Below, one piece after another: positions 3,907-45,184 of a DNA stretch of 49,650 nucleotides. Position 1 is the stretch's first letter, and each line of letters starts with the position of its first letter. The stretch comes from Candidatus Rokuibacteriota bacterium (lineage in GTDB: Bacteria; Methylomirabilota; Methylomirabilia; Rokubacteriales; CSP1-6). Both the position numbers and the translations under genes were made by a program. The notes under the pieces were generated by a model. It saw only the letters and a program-made list of their open reading frames with translations. It was not told where the DNA came from and did not search any database. The DNA is taken from assembly GCA_003220495.1 (NCBI GenBank), contig QHSP01000052.1, positions 1 to 49,650 on the forward strand, given 5' to 3'.

Positions 3907-5253
3907 ATGCAGAGAATCAGCCAGCTCATCCACAACGAACACGGCGTCGCGCTGGTCCTGGCCCTGATGATTCTCCTGACCCTGACCGGGCTCGTCCTGG
4001 CGTTTCTCTCGGCGAGCGCCTTCGAGCCGCAGATCTCGCGGAATCACAGCGAAACGGTTCGCGCACGCTACGTGGCCGAAGCCGGTGTCGAATACGCGTA
4101 CGACACGCTCGCCTCGAACGTCGGCTCATGGGACACCTATCTCGACGGGGCCACGTGCGCTCAGGGGGCCGTGCTCGGGGCGCCCAACTCGACGCTCCCC
4201 GGGCTCGGCGGCGCGCACGGCATGTTCACGGTCAGGATCCGCAACGACTGCAAGCCGGGCGACGACAAGTTGACCGGCGGCGCCGTCGACACCGTCACGG
4301 GTCGGTGCGATCCAGCCGTTCCCGGCGACGCCACGCACGACGGCAACTGCAAGGTCGTCGTGACGTCCACGGGCACGATCGGCGCCACGACACGGACGAT
4401 TACCGTCGTCGTCTCGAAGACCGCCGCCCTTCCGATCAACGGCGCGCTCGGATTCCCCGGCGCCCAGGCGGACGTGGTCGTCCGGGGGTCGAGCTTCGTG
4501 ATCGACGGGCGTGATACGAAGATCGCTGATCGGCCCGGCGCGCCGACGGGCGTCGCGGCGGCGGTCTACGGCATCGCGGTCAACGGCGCCCTTCCGGCGC
4601 TCGCGACTCGGCTCGAGACAGCTCTGGCGGCCGGCGGTCAGAGCGACGTGCGCGGGACGGACCGGACGGATCCGAGCGCGACGGGGCGCGGCGCCAACAC
4701 CATCCGGGCCGACGGCGCGCTCACGTCGCAAGCGGTCACCGATTTCGTCGACGCCGCGAAGTCGGCGGCCGACGTGACGATCAACGCCAGCCCCGGCAAC
4801 GGATCCTCGCTCAGCAATGTCGGCTCGACATGCGCGACCGATGTCGAGAGCTCCACGTGCTGGGGCACGAGCGCGCGCCCGAAGATCGTCTACGTCCGCG
4901 GCGCCCTGCCCGACATCGGGACGCGCTACACGGGGCTGAGCCTCGGGGGCACGAGCGCCGGCACCGGCATTCTCATCGTCGAGAACGGCATCGTGGAGAT
5001 CGGCGGGAGCTTTCGTTGGAACGGGCCGATCGTCGTGACCGGAAGGAACGTCGGCATTCGCTTCCGCGGCGATGGCAGCCAGGTCGTGTACGGCGCCACG
5101 ATCGTCAATGAGCTCAACCCGGTCGCCGTCGCGAACATCGAGGGCGACAGCGCGGGCAAACCACACATTCTATACAGCAATGAGGCTCTTAGCCTCGTAC
5201 AGAACGCGCTCAAACGTCGGCTCGTGACCGCTCAGAATTGGACCGACCGGTAG
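3907..5253 (+). CDS. PilX/GspK-type pilus assembly protein
   Basis: A 448-residue protein. After a short leader, Gly13 is followed by VALVLALMILLTLTGLVLAFL, a single helix that lacks Glu at mature position 5 (Leu there), as in PilX and GspK. The sequence SETVRARYVAEAGVEYAYDTL is the diagnostic segment after the helix (cf. 'AEAG.e.A'). The remaining 380 residues are beta-rich, Gly/Thr/Asn-rich and much longer than PilX of Pseudomonas; the last 150 (ILIVENGIVEIGGSF...VVYGATIVNE) look like a beta-solenoid. It is the final gene of the minor pilin block. No PilY1-like gene follows, so the large C-terminal part may do a tip-adhesin-like job (inference). Confidence 0.82.
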   Translation: MQRISQLIHNEHGVALVLALMILLTLTGLVLAFLSASAFEPQISRNHSETVRARYVAEAGVEYAYDTLASNVGSWDTYLDGATCAQGAVLGAPNSTLPGLGGAHGMFTVRIRNDCKPGDDKLTGGAVDTVTGRCDPAVPGDATHDGNCKVVVTSTGTIGATTRTITVVVSKTAALPINGALGFPGAQADVVVRGSSFVIDGRDTKIADRPGAPTGVAAAVYGIAVNGALPALATRLETALAAGGQSDVRGTDRTDPSATGRGANTIRADGALTSQAVTDFVDAAKSAADVTINASPGNGSSLSNVGSTCATDVESSTCWGTSARPKIVYVRGALPDIGTRYTGLSLGGTSAGTGILIVENGIVEIGGSFRWNGPIVVTGRNVGIRFRGDGSQVVYGATIVNELNPVAVANIEGDSAGKPHILYSNEALSLVQNALKRRLVTAQNWTDR

Positions 5254-27695: not shown

Positions 27696-28864
27696 GCCGC
27701 CGGGCCTCCGTCGTCATCATCGGCGGCGGTGTCACCGGCGCTTCGATCGCCTTTCACCTCACCCTCGCCGGTGTGCGCGACGTCGTCCTGCTCGAGCGGC
27801 GGAGCCTGGCGTCCGGCGGCACCGGCCGATCCGTCGGGATCGTCCGCCAGCTCTACCCCACGGCAGAGACCAGCCAGATGGTCGTGCGGTCGCTCGGCGT
27901 CTTCCAGCACTTCCGCGACGCCGTCGGCGGCGAATCGGGCTACGTCGCGTGCGGCGCGTTGATCGGCGTCTCGGCAGGGATGCGAGCGAAGCTCGAAGCG
28001 ACCGTGAAGCTCCAGCGGTCGGTCGGCGTCCGCGCCGAGGTGCTGGAGCCTCGTGATCTCGCGCGCGTCGAGCCGCGGATCGATCCGGAGAATCTCGGCG
28101 CGATCCTCTACGAGCCCGACTCGGGCTATGGCGATCCCACGGCGGTGACGAACGGCTACGCGGACGCGGCGCGCCGCAACGGCGTGCGTATCGAACAGGG
28201 CGTCGAGGTCGTGGCGGTCCGCAGCTCGGCTGGGCGCGTCGCGGGTGTCGAGACGGCGGCGGGCGAGCGCATCGACGCGCCGGTCGTCGTCAATGCGGCA
28301 GGCCTCTGGTCCCCAGCCGTCGCGCGGCTGGCCGGCATCGAGCTTCCCATCGTCGTCGGCCGCCACCCCGTGTTCGTAGTCGAGCGTGACGCCTCGTTCG
28401 GGCGTCCGCACCTCGTCTATCTCGATCTTGCCGGCGGGAGCTATGCGAGGCCGGAGACGGGGGGACTCACCCTCACCGGCTCTCTCACCGACGACGAGGC
28501 GCAGCATCCGATGGAGCCCGAGCGGCTCGGCGCCGACGTGGGCCTCGACGAAGCGGCAGAAGTTCTCGAGCGGACCGGTCGTGCGATCCCGCGCCTCGCC
28601 GAAGCGCGCTACCGGCGCGGCTGGGCCGGGGCGTTCGACATCACGCCGGACTGGATGCCGATCCTCGACGAGTCGCCGTTGCGCGGCTTCTGGATCGCGG
28701 CCGGAATGAGCGGGCACGGCTTCAAGCTGTCGCCCGCCGTCGGCGAGATGATGGCGGCGCGGATCACCGGGACGACGCCGCCCGTCGACCCGGCGCCATT
28801 CGCCTTCGGACGCTTCGGCGCGAAGGGCTCGAGCGGGACCTTCGTCGCGTCGTACCTGGGCTGA
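27692..28864 (+). CDS. FAD-dependent oxidoreductase (DAO / sarcosine-oxidase beta-like)
   Basis: 390 residues. N-terminal Rossmann motif VVIIGGGVTGASIAFHLTLAG with the acidic end VLLER; next SGGTGRSVGIVRQLYP, as in glycine/sarcosine oxidase-type enzymes; and the C-terminal FAD contact GFWIAAGMSGHGFKLSPAVGE. This group oxidises secondary or tertiary amines or amino acids (sarcosine, dimethylglycine, D-amino acids); the substrate cannot be inferred. The GTG at 27692 is four bases inside the MOSC gene. It converges on the histidine kinase gene with 13 bases between the stops. Confidence 0.88.
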   Translation: MSRRASVVIIGGGVTGASIAFHLTLAGVRDVVLLERRSLASGGTGRSVGIVRQLYPTAETSQMVVRSLGVFQHFRDAVGGESGYVACGALIGVSAGMRAKLEATVKLQRSVGVRAEVLEPRDLARVEPRIDPENLGAILYEPDSGYGDPTAVTNGYADAARRNGVRIEQGVEVVAVRSSAGRVAGVETAAGERIDAPVVVNAAGLWSPAVARLAGIELPIVVGRHPVFVVERDASFGRPHLVYLDLAGGSYARPETGGLTLTGSLTDDEAQHPMEPERLGADVGLDEAAEVLERTGRAIPRLAEARYRRGWAGAFDITPDWMPILDESPLRGFWIAAGMSGHGFKLSPAVGEMMAARITGTTPPVDPAPFAFGRFGAKGSSGTFVASYLG

Positions 28865-28877
28865 AGACGCCGCGACG

Positions 28878-30416
28878 TCAGGCGTGCGCGACCGGTAGCT
28901 CGACGGTGAACGTCGTGCCGGCGCCTTCCATGCTCTCGACGCGTATCCTACCGCCGACCGACTCCACGATGGTCTTGGTGATCGCGAGCCCCAGACCCGT
29001 GCCGGCGATCTCGCGGGTCGCCTTGCTCTCGACCCGGTAGAACTTGTCGAACACGTGAGGGAGGTCGCGGGCCGGGATCCCCAGGCCCGTGTCCGACACG
29101 CGGATCGTCACGGTCTCGGCGCCGTCGCCCCCGGCGGAGAACGCGGCCGAGACCGTGACCCGCCCGCCCGACGGTGTGTACTTGATGCCGTTGTCGATCA
29201 GGTTGACCAGCGCCTGCTTGATTCGAATCGGCGCGGCCATGACGATCGCCTCCGCCGGAAGATCGGTGCGGAGCTCGATCGCCCTGCGCTCGGCGTTGGG
29301 CCGCACGATCCGCAGCGCCTCCTCGGCGACGGGCACCAGGTCCATCGGCTCGCGGGCCGCGTCGAGCCCGGCTTCGATCTTGCCGATGTCGAGAAGGTCG
29401 GTGACGAGATCGGCCATGTGCTGGGCCGTATCACGGATATCCTGACAGTGCTTCTCGAACCCCGGGTTCGTCGGCCCGGCCATCCGCATCAGGTCCGCAA
29501 GCCCCGCGATGACCGTGATCGGGCTCTTGAGGTCGTGCGAGACGGTGTTGACGAAGTCGTTCTTCATCTGCTCGAGGTTCTTCAACAGCGTGATGTCGCG
29601 AAGGACCACCGCCAGCCCGACCGGCTCGCCGAACGGCGTGACCACCTGGACCATGCTCGCCTGCGCGACGCGTCCGTCGGGCAGCGGCAGCTCGGAGATG
29701 CCGGGCTTGCCCTTCACGAACAGCTCACGCAGCGGGCCGTAGTCGACCACCTCGAGGAGTGGCCGGCCCTCGACCGCGTCTGGCGCGAGGCTCAGCATCT
29801 GGCGCACGGCTCCGTTCGCCAAGAGCACGAGGCCGCCCGGGTTCATCGCGATCACGGCGTCGGCGGTGCTGCCGAGCACGCCGAGCATCGTCATGCGTTC
29901 GTCGGCGAGCGCCTGATAGGCCTGCGAGGTCTCGAGCGCCGCCGACAGCCCCGCCGCCAGGAGGGCGGCAACCTGGACGTCATCGTCACCGTACGTGATC
30001 GGCGGACGGGCGGCAAACAGCAAGGCGCCGAGCGCATCGAGCCCTCGACGGATCGGCACCGCCAGAGTGGCGCGCAGGCCCGCCGCGATCAGCACGCCCT
30101 CGAGGTCGTGGACGCCGTCGTGGACGCGGGCCAGGTCTTCGATCCGCTGCGCCTGTCCCGTCATGATCGCGCGACCCGGCAGTCCCTCGTAGAGCGAGAA
30201 TCCCCGCAGGCTCACGGCGCCGGCGTCGAGGCCGGCGAGCGTGTGCACGAGATAGCTGCCCTTCTCGGGATCCGGGAGGCACACGGCGAGGTAATCGTGC
30301 GGCACCACGCGGCCCGCGTGATCGCCGAGCGTCTGGAAGAAGTGCGTGGGAATCGGCGAGCGGAACAGCTCGATGAGGATCTCGCTGAGCCGCGTCAGGC
30401 GCTCGGTCTGGCTCAT
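28878..30416 (-). CDS. Soluble sensor histidine kinase with GAF and PAS domains
   Basis: 512 residues without membrane segments. GAF domain about 15-160 (GFSLYEGLPGRAIMTGQAQRI), PAS about 175-280 (STADAVIAMNPGGLVLLANGAVRQML, VVLRDITLLKNLEQ), HisKA with the H-box VNTVSHDLKSPITVI (phospho-acceptor His294), and HATPase with N-box NLIDNGIKYTP, G1 SDTGLGIP, F-box FDKFYRV and G2 GTGLGLAI, all intact. It should autophosphorylate in response to a cytoplasmic ligand or redox signal. No response regulator gene is in the window. The ATG overlaps the TGA of the peroxiredoxin-like gene (ATGA), so the two are cotranslated. Confidence 0.94.
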   Translation of the reverse strand: MSQTERLTRLSEILIELFRSPIPTHFFQTLGDHAGRVVPHDYLAVCLPDPEKGSYLVHTLAGLDAGAVSLRGFSLYEGLPGRAIMTGQAQRIEDLARVHDGVHDLEGVLIAAGLRATLAVPIRRGLDALGALLFAARPPITYGDDDVQVAALLAAGLSAALETSQAYQALADERMTMLGVLGSTADAVIAMNPGGLVLLANGAVRQMLSLAPDAVEGRPLLEVVDYGPLRELFVKGKPGISELPLPDGRVAQASMVQVVTPFGEPVGLAVVLRDITLLKNLEQMKNDFVNTVSHDLKSPITVIAGLADLMRMAGPTNPGFEKHCQDIRDTAQHMADLVTDLLDIGKIEAGLDAAREPMDLVPVAEEALRIVRPNAERRAIELRTDLPAEAIVMAAPIRIKQALVNLIDNGIKYTPSGGRVTVSAAFSAGGDGAETVTIRVSDTGLGIPARDLPHVFDKFYRVESKATREIAGTGLGLAITKTIVESVGGRIRVESMEGAGTTFTVELPVAHA

Positions 30417-31060
30417 GCCGGTACTGGTGTCGCGCCGCAGCGGGCGCGCGCCAGCTCGGCGAGCTCGGCGCCGCCGGGAACCGGATCGATCGGGCCGACC
30501 ACCGTGACGTTCCGGATCACCCCGTGCTTGTCGATCAGGAACATGCCCTGCTCGTGCGCGGTCATCGCATGATGGTGAAGGCGGCGCACGAAGTTGCGGT
30601 TCATGACATCGAAGAATGCTCCGCGTGTCTGGTTGACGCTGTCGCCGTGGGTGAACGCGTGGGCAAAGCTCACCACCGCCGTGCGGGTCGCCTCGAGAAC
30701 GCCGCGGTCGCCGAGGCCGTAGACTGCGAAGAGCCGTTTGTCAGGATCGCACACGAACGGAAATGGCAGCGGCGACGACCCGAAGTAGCGTCGCGCGCTT
30801 TCCAGAAGGTTCGGCGCCACCTGGATCACCTCGGTCTCGGCGCTCTGCAGATCTTCGTAGTTGCTCCGGATTCCGTCGGTGTAGACGCGACAGAAGGGGC
30901 ACGTGAAGCCGCGCGAGAACCACACGATCACGTTGCGTCGCTCACGGTAGGAGGCCAGATCCACCATCGGCCCGCGGACCGACGGAAGCGAGAAGAGGGG
31001 CGCCCTCGCGCCGACTGAGGGGCGCCCGGGTGTCTGCTCGACGGACGCGCTGGTCGCCAT
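30413..31060 (-). CDS. Peroxiredoxin-like (AhpC/TSA, redoxin) protein
   Basis: 215 residues. Thioredoxin-fold start VGARAPLFSLPSVRGPMVDLASYRERRNVIVWFSRG, then TCPFC with Cys54 and Cys57: Cys54 is where the peroxidatic cysteine of peroxiredoxins stands, and the CxxC pair would allow disulfide cycling as in thiol-disulfide proteins. A further conserved-looking stretch FVCDPDKRLFAVYGLG follows. No signal peptide, so cytoplasmic. It is the first gene of an operon with the histidine kinase and could be its redox input (inference). An AT-rich region with two palindromes lies upstream. Confidence 0.87.
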   Translation of the reverse strand: MATSASVEQTPGRPSVGARAPLFSLPSVRGPMVDLASYRERRNVIVWFSRGFTCPFCRVYTDGIRSNYEDLQSAETEVIQVAPNLLESARRYFGSSPLPFPFVCDPDKRLFAVYGLGDRGVLEATRTAVVSFAHAFTHGDSVNQTRGAFFDVMNRNFVRRLHHHAMTAHEQGMFLIDKHGVIRNVTVVGPIDPVPGGAELAELARARCGATPVPA

Positions 31061-31577
31061 GGTTCCGCCCTCGCTGGCCTCTTCCTCCCTCTATACCAGG
31101 CAAGAGACATACCAAGGGCAACGAGCTGGTTTATATAAACTTATTGGCTTGTAAGGGCGGGCCGTGAACGGAAATTTCCGGCCGAGGTGGCCAGGAACAG
31201 CCCAGCCGGCTTGGGCAGGAAGCTCGCCAGTCTATATCGCTCGACTCCGCCGAGTATCCGTCTGCACGTCACACTGCTGGTCACGAAGTTGTCGAGAGAG
31301 GCGAGGACATTGCGGCAAAGAGCTCACCACCGCTGTCAGACCGATCGCAGAGGGCTGCTGCTCACGTGTAGCCGAGCTGGCGGCGCCCCATACGGATCAG
31401 CCACTTGCGGCCTTGCGGCGACTGTCCGCTTCGATAACGCTCTACGAACTCTCTGGCTCATCGATTGCACTCTGGATGGCGAGACAAAGGAGCGTACCCG
31501 TCTTGCCATCTTTCCGGACGCCCGTCGCTCCCCGAGACGCGCGCACTCGAAGGCCCGGCGACCTCACCCACCCTGAA
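31061..31577. promoter_or_regulatory. Divergent intergenic region with two 12-bp palindromes
   Basis: The 517 bases between the peroxiredoxin-like gene (leftward) and a GT2 gene (rightward) hold no gene I can support. GTTTATATAAAC (31129-31140) and CGGAAATTTCCG (31169-31180) are perfect palindromes in an AT-rich patch and may be operators. On the leftward strand TATAGA, preceded by TGG (extended -10 type), lies about 31090-31095 and could serve the peroxiredoxin gene. Bases 31190-31570 are of mixed composition; open frames there look random. Confidence 0.45.
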
Positions 31578-42396: not shown

Positions 42397-45069
42397 TCAC
42401 GGCCCGGACACCGTGAGCGTCGCGCTCCCGAAGAAACTGAAGGAGTTGGTCCCGGTCTGCAGCCAGACCTGAGCCTGAACCGTGCCCGCCGACAGGCCCG
42501 GCAGATTCGGCGTGAGCGTTGTCGCCGTCGTCGGGAACGGCACGGTCAGCGTGGTGCTCATGAGCGCGGTAGCCCGCGCCTGCGCGAGCAGCGTGCCGCC
42601 GCGCATGAAGTTCACGACCGGCAGGCCGAACCCGAGGTTCGCGAAGCCGTTGCCGGTGATCGTGAAGCTGGCGGGCGGCATCGCCACGTTGATCGCGTCG
42701 GGGCTGATGCCGGTCACTCGCGTGTCGGTCACCGTGAGCGTGGCGCTCCCGATCAGGCTGAAGGAATTCGCGCTCGTCTGCTGCCAGACCTGGGCCTGGA
42801 CGGTACCGACCGAGAGCCCGGGCAGGTTCGGCGTGAGCGATGTGGCCGGCGTCGGGTACGGCACCGTCAACGTCGTGCCCCCGGCGAGCCCCGTCGCCCG
42901 GGCTTGCGCGACGAAGGCGCCGTTGCGCATGAAGTTCACGACCGGCAGGCCGAACCCGAGGTTCGCGAAGCCGGTGCCGGTAATCGTGAAAGTCGCCGGC
43001 CGGGTCGCCAGATCGACCGGGTTGGGAACGATGCCACTCACGCCCCGGGTGTCGGTCGCCGTGAGCGTGCCGCTCCCGATCAGGCTGAAGGTCGGCGTGC
43101 TCGATGTCTGATGCCACACCTGAGCCTGTATCTGCCCCGCCGAGAGCCCGGGCAGGTTCGGCGTGAGCGATGTGGCCGGCGTCGGGTACGGCACCGTCAA
43201 GGTCGTGCTCCCGGCGAGCCCCGTCGCCCGTGCTTGCGCGATCAAAGCGCCGTTGCGCATGAAGTTCACGACCGGGAGGCCGTAACCGAGATTCGCAAAG
43301 CCGTAGCCGGTGATTGTGAACGTCGCCGGTGGCGTCGCCAGGTCGATCGGGCTGGGAACGATGGCGCTGACGCCCGCGCCGATGCCGGTGACCGCAACGG
43401 TGACGTCACCGCCATTCGAGGTGAAGCTCACGTTCGCCGAGACCACGCCGGGCGCCGTCGGGCGGAATCGCACCACGACCGACTGGGTCGAGTTGGGGCC
43501 GAGGTTGAAGGAACCCCCGGAGACGATGCTGAACGGGGAATTTGCAGATGCGCTGCCGGTGAGAATCCCGCCGCCGGTATTCTGGACGACGAACGTTCTG
43601 TCAACAGAGCCGCCCACGGCCACCGTGCCGAAGTCCTGCGAAGTCGGAGTCACCGACAGGGCTGGAGGCTCCTGATTGTCCCCGAGCAAGACGCTCAGCG
43701 CGAGGTCGACCTGGATCCTGGGCTTGGTCGTGCCCGTTCCCGCCCGTGGGTCCGTGATCGGGAGCCCCGTGCTGGTGAGGGCCTGGAGGATCGCGTCGAC
43801 GCTCGCCGTCGGCGCGGCCTGCTTCAGGATGGCCCACGCGCCCGCCACGTGCGGGGCTGCCATCGACGTGCCGCTCGCCACCGCGAAATTCTCGCCGGGG
43901 TACGATGAGATGATCTCGTCGCCGGGAGCGAACAACGACATGAAGGGCGCCACGTTCGAGTAATCGGCGACGCGGTCGTCCTTCGTCGTGGCACCGACGC
44001 TCACGGCGCTGGACACGCACGCCGGCGCGCTGATCTGGTTGGGCGACCCGTCGTTGCCGGACGCGATGACGGTCGCGATGCCCGCGGCGCGCAAGTTGTC
44101 GATAAAGGGCTTGTACGGCTCGTCGTCGCACGGCCCGCTGAAGAGTCCGCCCCCGAGACTCATGTTGACCGACGCGAAATCGTGCACGGTCCGCAGATCG
44201 TAGACGCGCTCAAGGGCGGCGAGGATGTCCGACGTGTACGCGCCCAGGCACGGAGGCGCGCCGCCGCAGTCGAGGAAGCTCGTGATCCGCGAGAAAACCT
44301 GGATCGACATGATGCTGGCGCCACGGCCGACGCCCCAGATGGGCAGGTCGAACGGCGTCCCGTCGCCGGCGACGATGCCGGCCACGTGGGTCCCGTGCCA
44401 GCAGCCCTCGAGGTCGAGCGGGCAGTACACGCCGGCGCCGGGCCCGATCTGCTCGTCGGCACCGTTCGGGCAGAGCGACTGGCTCTGGAACCCCGACGTG
44501 GTGGAATAGCACGCCTCGTCGATGACCTTGCCCGCGAGGAACGGGTGCGCGGAGTCGACGCCGCTGTCGATCACCGCCACCGTACGGCCGGAGCCGTCGA
44601 AGCCGAGGGCCCAGGCCTGATCGGCGCCGATCAGGGGGACGCTGTCCCACAAGACCGGCTTGTGGATCCTGTCGGCCATCACGCGCTTGACCGGTAGGTT
44701 GGCCGCTTCGAGCTCCTTGAGCGCCGACGGCCCGACGCTGAGCGCCAGCAGCGGCGACGTCAGGTAGCGACGCAGAACGCGATAGTGATGCGACGCCAGC
44801 CGACCCAGGACCCGCGAGCCGGTGGCGGTGATCTCCTGTCGGTACGCGTCACGCGCCTGGGACGCGAGCGCGCCCTCGGCGACGCGGCCGGAGGGAAGCG
44901 CGAGCTCGACGAGCACGCGAACCTCGCCTTCAGCGAGCGCACGATCATGGAGCGCACGCGGCACCACGCCCGGCTTCTGATCCGGAGGCGCCGCGAGCGC
45001 GTACGCGGGCAGGATGATGCCCAGCAACAATAAATTTACGGAAATTGGCCATCGGAGCCGTCGCCACAT
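42397..45069 (-). CDS. Secreted subtilisin-like serine protease with C-terminal repeat domains
   Basis: 890 residues. Signal peptide about 1-26 (LLLLGIILPAYALA), an inhibitor-I9-like propeptide (about 48-140, VRVLVELALPSG...LASHHYRVLRRYL), then an S8 catalytic domain with Asp168 (VAVIDSGVDSAHP), His225 (CWHGTHVAG), oxyanion Asn in ASGNDGS and Ser402 (SGTSMAAPHVAG). Residues about 470-565 form a choice-of-anchor-D-like beta domain (VTPTSQDFGTVAVGG). Three repeats of about 108 residues follow (from 568, 678 and 786), each with TFTITGxGFANLGxGLPVVNFMR; they look like IPT/TIG-type beta-sandwiches. All catalytic residues are intact, so a working exported protease is likely. Remnants of a homologue lie just upstream and at 48.5-49 kb. 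Confidence 0.93.
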   Translation of the reverse strand: MWRRLRWPISVNLLLLGIILPAYALAAPPDQKPGVVPRALHDRALAEGEVRVLVELALPSGRVAEGALASQARDAYRQEITATGSRVLGRLASHHYRVLRRYLTSPLLALSVGPSALKELEAANLPVKRVMADRIHKPVLWDSVPLIGADQAWALGFDGSGRTVAVIDSGVDSAHPFLAGKVIDEACYSTTSGFQSQSLCPNGADEQIGPGAGVYCPLDLEGCWHGTHVAGIVAGDGTPFDLPIWGVGRGASIMSIQVFSRITSFLDCGGAPPCLGAYTSDILAALERVYDLRTVHDFASVNMSLGGGLFSGPCDDEPYKPFIDNLRAAGIATVIASGNDGSPNQISAPACVSSAVSVGATTKDDRVADYSNVAPFMSLFAPGDEIISSYPGENFAVASGTSMAAPHVAGAWAILKQAAPTASVDAILQALTSTGLPITDPRAGTGTTKPRIQVDLALSVLLGDNQEPPALSVTPTSQDFGTVAVGGSVDRTFVVQNTGGGILTGSASANSPFSIVSGGSFNLGPNSTQSVVVRFRPTAPGVVSANVSFTSNGGDVTVAVTGIGAGVSAIVPSPIDLATPPATFTITGYGFANLGYGLPVVNFMRNGALIAQARATGLAGSTTLTVPYPTPATSLTPNLPGLSAGQIQAQVWHQTSSTPTFSLIGSGTLTATDTRGVSGIVPNPVDLATRPATFTITGTGFANLGFGLPVVNFMRNGAFVAQARATGLAGGTTLTVPYPTPATSLTPNLPGLSVGTVQAQVWQQTSANSFSLIGSATLTVTDTRVTGISPDAINVAMPPASFTITGNGFANLGFGLPVVNFMRGGTLLAQARATALMSTTLTVPFPTTATTLTPNLPGLSAGTVQAQVWLQTGTNSFSFFGSATLTVSGP
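42400..43368 (-). repeat. Three tandem coding repeats of about 320 bp in the subtilase gene
   Basis: Units lie at about 43039-43368, 42715-43038 and 42400-42714. The first two share long identical DNA stretches (for example around 42830-42880 and 43150-43206), showing recent duplication or conversion; the third is more diverged but keeps GNGFANLGFGLPVVNFMR. Confidence 0.85.
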
Positions 45070-45184
45070 GGCCCTGCATAGTGCGCAACGACCGTGCCAT
45101 CCGCAACCTGCTTGAACGGCAGGATTTCAGGGCATGTGACGCGTGACGCTTTGGCAGTCGCAGTGACCCAGGGCGTCACTCGTG

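Follow-up and report, generated by a model that had tools for sequence, protein, structure and literature searches.

What does a small cytosolic redoxin do for a soluble histidine kinase with whose gene its own gene shares four nucleotides? The question is raised by a locus on a 49,650-base contig (C117) of a Rokubacteria assembly totaling 5.98 Mb, and the whole of this contig is referred to below as the window. We propose that the two proteins form a dedicated redox input module for a two-component circuit, a reading to which we give roughly an even chance, and the main competing readings make the redoxin either an output enzyme under shared regulation or a reductase that maintains the kinase.

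The redoxin and kinase genes

The redoxin gene (P0002, 215 aa; 30413..31060, minus strand) is recognized by its AhpC-TSA score and the peroxiredoxin fold of its model, and the gene for a soluble GAF-PAS-HisKA-HATPase histidine kinase (P0001, 512 aa; 28878..30416, minus strand) by its Pfam domains, its catalytic residues and the lack of a membrane segment. The two share the tetranucleotide ATGA (30413..30416, minus strand), in which the stop codon of the redoxin overlaps the start codon of the kinase, and this junction sequence bears out the first-pass annotation, in which the kinase ATG overlapped the stop of a CPFC-containing redoxin. Such an overlap suggests that the two genes are translationally coupled; overlapping genes are frequent in operons and are also common where genes merely share regulation.

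The kinase scores above the Pfam cut-offs for GAF_2, GAF, PAS, HisKA, and HATPase_c. By Pfam, the GAF domain covers residues 28–162 (29931..30335), the PAS domain residues 182–275 (29592..29873), and the catalytic HATPase_c domain residues 396–510 (28887..29231), and the HisKA dimerization and phosphoacceptor domain (29367..29567), placed by Pfam and alignment, contains His294 in the motif SHDLKSP (all minus strand). The H, N, D/G1, F, and G2 boxes retain their key residues, which are invariant in a 14-row alignment, and with HisKA and HATPase_c above their cut-offs P0001 is an orthodox histidine kinase. Its highest Kyte-Doolittle mean over 19 residues is 1.41, hence there is no evident membrane segment, and the original description of a soluble GAF-PAS kinase with all of its catalytic boxes stands by domain content, alignment and hydropathy. 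Among the 25 of 82 matched NCBIfam families that were listed, none of the named kinase equivalogs (PnpS, PhoR, WalK, and others) reached its cut-off, the best of the 25 being PnpS with 247.8 bits against a cut-off of 400.

The redoxin scores 62.0 bits with AhpC-TSA (PF00578; cut-off 26.0) and is also above the cut-off for the Redoxin family, and it carries the motif TCPFC, with the CPFC codons (C54 and C57, placed by cysteine alignment) at 30890..30901 on the minus strand. Its structure model has a peroxiredoxin fold, with a Z score of 21.4 over 157 residues and an rmsd of 2.2 to yeast TSA2 (5dvb_A), and a Z score of 21.2 to AhpE. The mean pLDDT is 76, with values below 50 for residues 120–136 and 139–153, and these fall in a segment, residues ∼120–171, that is conserved although it is weakly modelled. 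By domain score and predicted fold, P0002 is therefore placed in the AhpC-TSA/peroxiredoxin superfamily. With the profile for SelL-related redox proteins (NF040769) it reaches 51.1 bits, below the cut-off of 120, and a Chloroflexota relative reaches 61.8 bits. The peroxiredoxin fold and the intact CxxC motif would suit a working enzyme, as expected if the kinase senses something else through its GAF and PAS domains and the redoxin is a protective thiol peroxidase or reductase that is coupled to it for co-regulation only, an explanation that we regard as unlikely but as one to be weighed at each step below.

More distant redoxins of the phylum point to the residue that reacts. Thirteen such loci were examined, most of them picked for a reported TGA, and in 11 of these an in-frame TGA is found exactly at the position that aligns with C54, the first cysteine of CPFC (L067, from contig C30 of the window's own genome, at 3911–4213, and L022, L024, L025, L026, L032, and L034–L038). 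These are probably selenocysteine redoxins that recur within the Rokubacteria phylum, and the alignment of the TGA with C54 indicates that this position is the reactive one. An Rfam search around L067 gave no RNA family above the gathering score. Prx-like selenoproteins of the UxxC type are an already known kind (PMC13188914), and the Prx-like thiol:disulfide oxidoreductases that include them and the SelL-related NF040769 family likewise have a PF00578 domain, with CxxC or UxxC at the position that aligns with the CxxC of P0002. P0002 differs from the SelL-related and UxxC redoxins in having Cys rather than Sec, in its conserved segment at residues ∼120–171, and in being tied to a kinase. That distant homologues probably have Sec in place of C54, like the UxxC oxidoreductases of that report (PMC13188914), would also fit a redoxin that keeps the kinase able to sense a ligand of its own, by reducing or repairing a GAF cysteine or by protecting a cofactor bound there. 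We consider such a maintenance role improbable, and no cofactor site was identified in support of it.

Conservation of the gene pair

Of 95 genomes from the Rokubacteria phylum, 13 have an orthologue of the redoxin (64–91% identity, with the window's own as the thirteenth), and a separate search placed kinase orthologues in the same 13 genomes, that of G043 being partial and at a contig end. Other redoxin matches, with at most 38% identity (up to 47% for short partial ones), were not counted as orthologues, nor were the kinase matches of G016 and G070 (40% identity over residues 150–511, the core only, and once more confined to the core with the family profile) or a second kinase match in G069 that came from the family-profile search. 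The two genes are adjacent in 12 of the 13 genomes, in 11 of them directly; in G043 the contigs end inside the pair, with 35 kinase codons following the redoxin and the kinase core at the end of another contig. At all 12 of these junctions the genes overlap by four nucleotides, ATGA or GTGA. In G069, redoxin and kinase are located on different contigs, neither of them near an end, which shows that the genes need not be adjacent.

A scan of a collection of genome contigs with the redoxin alone returned 14 loci, nine on Rokubacteria contigs, which are apparently the same as loci already examined, and five from Chloroflexota (L096–L100). In all five of the latter the kinase is next to the redoxin on the same strand, with a spacing that ranges from a slight overlap to ∼220 nt, and identities to the window pair are 36–54% for the redoxin and 37–49% for the kinase. 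Conservation of the gene pair, the check proposed with the original annotation, thus holds in both phyla, and the refuting outcome named there, a pairing that is not conserved, did not come about. The distribution is at the same time narrow: in addition to the 13 of 95 phylum genomes, it extends to 5 of 56 genomes of a Chloroflexota order. Searches of overlapping sets of Chloroflexota genomes for further pairs, wanted for the covariation of kinase C46 with redoxin C104 discussed below, gave matches at the limits set in 4 of 396, 3 of 346, and 5 of 56 genomes, the best 7–8 candidates per genome being scored in the two larger sets, and the only addition was G364, which is considered below. Distant redoxins were found in 108 plasmid records, every one of them with less than 60% identity, and the 19 stretches of viral contigs that matched the search pattern included no relatives.

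Could the two genes be together by chance, or through a shared promoter only, and have no functional link? Neighboring genes are also shared within genus code g1, hence linkage inside g1 is uninformative. Yet the pair is intact in four Rokubacteria genus codes (g1, g5, g7, and g8) and in Chloroflexota, and the other direct neighbors differ, none besides the pair being common to more than one of these five groups with the heuristic choice of open reading frames used here. Redoxin and kinase moreover co-occur in 13 of 13 genomes. As a control, flanks of up to 1.5 kb around the 17 more distant redoxin loci of the same phylum (L022–L038), shortened by contig ends in 7 of the 17, were searched and gave no kinase match at E 1e-10, and in the same search other kinases of the window's genome did match the kinase query. 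Chance linkage is disfavored, and we regard a neighborhood devoid of functional meaning as very improbable. The trees of the two proteins from 16 genomes have 10 of 13 splits in common and a distance correlation of 0.96, but this concordance shows co-inheritance rather than interaction, as it is expected under plain vertical inheritance.

The same data also bear on the redoxin as a mere output enzyme. The unlinked genes of G069 are compatible with it, but a plain output gene needs no tie to a kinase and the pair has been kept in two phyla, with the four-nucleotide overlap retained at 12 of 12 Rokubacteria junctions.

Some loci have features of their own. The kinase copy of a close relative (G050; 89–93% identical) is frameshifted near codon 148 (L049, ∼10764), where an assembly error and decay cannot be told apart. 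In G062 the kinase is followed, with a four-nucleotide overlap, by a 175-aa open reading frame with a cyclic-nucleotide-binding domain (L055, 7573–8100, minus strand), and a similar reading frame lies several kilobases away in the other g8 genome (L056).

Conserved cysteines and family signatures

Both proteins have kept cysteines. In the redoxin, C54 and C57 are conserved in 18 of 18 sequences, C104 in 16, and C208 in 14. The kinase alignment, which has 16 rows and omits the frameshifted G050 copy and the partial G043 sequence, shows Cys46 of the GAF domain (codon 30279–30281) in 14 kinases and C324 in 10, so that the search for a conserved GAF cysteine, suggested at first pass, was successful. 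The N-terminal read-through of the frames from L049, L054, L059, and L084 was trimmed before alignment. Conserved pairing taken together with conserved cysteines in both proteins makes a functional link well founded, which supports the initial interpretation in part; a peroxide or thiol signal from redoxin to kinase, as first suggested, belongs to the mechanism that we propose below.

The redoxin C104 and the kinase C46 are absent from the same two species (L099 and L100), and a joint loss is what might be expected if the redoxin serves to maintain the GAF cysteine. These are sister species, however, with kinases that are 84.5% identical, hence the joint absence represents one event and is a weak hint. 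The pair persists in both of them, which argues against maintenance of C46 and also means that a disulfide at C46 cannot be the universal mechanism.

Neither DPDKRL nor RLHHHA, the signatures of the paired family, is present in the redoxin of G364 (L107, 40% identical), whose gene sits between genes for a TerC-family protein and a DUF433 protein. Searched with the kinase family profile, this genome gave no match at E 1e-70, whereas the G069 member scores 796 bits. The lack of the signatures in a genome that lacks the kinase suggests, from this one case, that they may serve the kinase, which is not what a redoxin acting solely as an output enzyme would lead one to expect.

Upstream elements and transcriptional control

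Two palindromes upstream of the redoxin had been put forward as possible operators. Both are present and perfect over 12 nt, GTTTAT/ATAAAC at 31129..31140 and CGGAAA/TTTCCG at 31169..31180, but the first is not conserved, the second lies only partly inside a conserved block, and in none of eight aligned relatives is either kept as a palindrome, so an operator role is not supported. Better regulatory candidates, on the basis of the alignment, are a −24/−12-like element, TGGTATGTCTCTTGC (31100..31114, minus strand), which is conserved upstream of the redoxin in g1 and g8, and the conserved block CCTGGCCA-N5-GCCGGAAATT (31173..31195, minus strand), a candidate activator site.

The first of these belongs to what we take to be the sigma54 −24/−12 class (TGG-N8-TTGC type). 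The form TGGTAY-N5-TTGC is found upstream of the redoxin in eight of the nine g1/g8 pairs and with one mismatch, TTG for TGG, in the ninth, and random sequences give a chance of 0.0003 to 0.0024 per locus within 150 nt, although the nine sequences are related and do not count as independent of one another. The window as a whole contains two sigma54-type matches, with 0.14 expected. The other one, TGGCACGGTCGTTGC (45085–45099, minus strand), ends ∼15 nt before an 890-aa subtilase-like open reading frame (42397–45069, minus strand). Of the 95 phylum genomes, 91 encode the RpoN DNA-binding domain (Sigma54_DBD), and so does the genome to which the window belongs, so the upstream element and RpoN occur together there, as a predicted sigma54 promoter requires. 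No RpoN match was found in G050, an 87% complete genome in which the element is present.

The left half of the block is present in all nine g1/g8 sequences and CCGGAAA in seven, by a pattern that was written after the alignment had been inspected, and the block is about 65–85 nt upstream of the element in eight of them and about 26–40 nt in G061. In g8 (G061 and G062) the element is only 22–28 nt before the assumed start codon, which is too near, and the true start would have to be further downstream. A pattern scan of 500 nt upstream of the genes in G043, G069, g7, and the five Chloroflexota loci did not find the element, and scans of 28600–31500 for sigma70-like promoters and terminators returned nothing. 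We infer sigma54 control of the operon for genera g1 and g8. An element of this kind suggests specific transcriptional control of the redoxin in two genera, which is among the points in favor of the redoxin being a regulated protective enzyme.

Response regulators

The absence of a response regulator, as first described, holds for the window and not for all relatives of the pair. A receiver HMM built from eight of the genome's own domains found no receiver domain at E 1e-5 among window open reading frames of at least 60 aa, hence there is no complete linked two-component system with an adjacent regulator, and 121 receiver matches were counted genome-wide at E 0.001. Genus g7 differs: in each of its two genomes with the pair (G056 and G060) a receiver-only regulator (Response_reg 70.9 bits in G060) is encoded directly upstream of the redoxin with an ATGA overlap, so that the gene order is regulator, redoxin, kinase. 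Another g7 genome (L111) has a homologue of the regulator, 66 nt upstream of an open frame with two GAF domains, and together these provide the best hint that the redoxin operates inside a two-component circuit.

Used as a query for a partner in the window's genome, the g7 regulator retrieved only general receiver matches, the best having 47% identity and lying inside a 962-aa open frame, and we name no partner from these. Some 1.7 kb upstream of the g7 operon in G060 (L058, 2401–7162) are genes for a receiver-containing protein of the metallo-beta-lactamase fold and for a hybrid kinase of 1118 aa that combines GAF, two receivers, and an Hpt domain.

A proposed redox input module

How might such a module work? 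We propose that a single message gives rise, by translational coupling, to a cytosolic CxxC peroxiredoxin-like protein and a soluble GAF-PAS histidine kinase. Cys54/Cys57 of the redoxin would react with peroxide or with some other oxidant of thiols, and the kinase would read the oxidation state of the redoxin by direct contact through its GAF-PAS part, possibly by disulfide exchange in which GAF Cys46 might be the acceptor. Contact with the redoxin would then alter autophosphorylation at His294, and the phosphoryl group would pass to a response regulator that is encoded away from the pair in the case of the window and by the gene directly upstream in g7.

A fuller version, which we put forward tentatively and hold to be rather doubtful as a whole, is a bacterial peroxiredoxin-to-histidine-kinase thiol relay made up of three proteins, a redoxin receptor, a soluble GAF-PAS kinase and a receiver protein. 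In such a relay the oxidized redoxin would form a transient mixed disulfide with the GAF domain, RpoN would control expression in some of the Rokubacteria, and the system would be of ancient origin or else have passed between Rokubacteria and Chloroflexota by exchange.

Relationship to known systems

In Rhodobacter, PrrC/SenC is genetically tied to the kinase PrrB/RegB, RegB being a membrane kinase. The likeness to the present pair is that a protein of the thioredoxin fold has a genetic tie to a sensor kinase under redox regulation. RegB has a disulfide and PrrC is a periplasmic, Sco-type copper chaperone (PMC7278568 and PMC7558416), whereas in the pair described here the redoxin is of the AhpC-TSA family and the GAF-PAS kinase is soluble. 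The HbpS-SenS-SenR system of streptomycetes likewise combines an accessory protein, a sensor kinase and a regulator in redox-stress signaling but, from the available part of PMC4991794, HbpS is secreted and SenS is embedded in the membrane; here neither protein has a membrane segment, and the accessory component is a thiol protein with the peroxiredoxin fold. Mak2 and Mak3 of S. pombe are also PAS- and GAF-containing histidine kinases, in a peroxide pathway that requires a peroxiredoxin as well, but that peroxiredoxin, Tpx1, comes into play after the phosphorelay, by disulfide signaling to the MAP kinase Sty1, and a gene pair is not described in the available part of PMC3644883.

Accessory redox proteins for sensor kinases are therefore already known. 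Searches of open-access full text turned up no soluble kinase that is coupled to a cytosolic protein of the peroxiredoxin family, and no report of this redoxin-kinase pair, which is no proof of its absence from print. To our knowledge, peroxiredoxin-based relays to kinases are known mainly from eukaryotes. If the proposal is correct, a compact and soluble bacterial version that consists of two genes and is present in two phyla would offer a simple test system for the hand-over of a signal from a peroxidase-like protein to a kinase. It would also propose what feeds one of the numerous two-component circuits in these soil bacteria, the present genome having 121 receiver matches.
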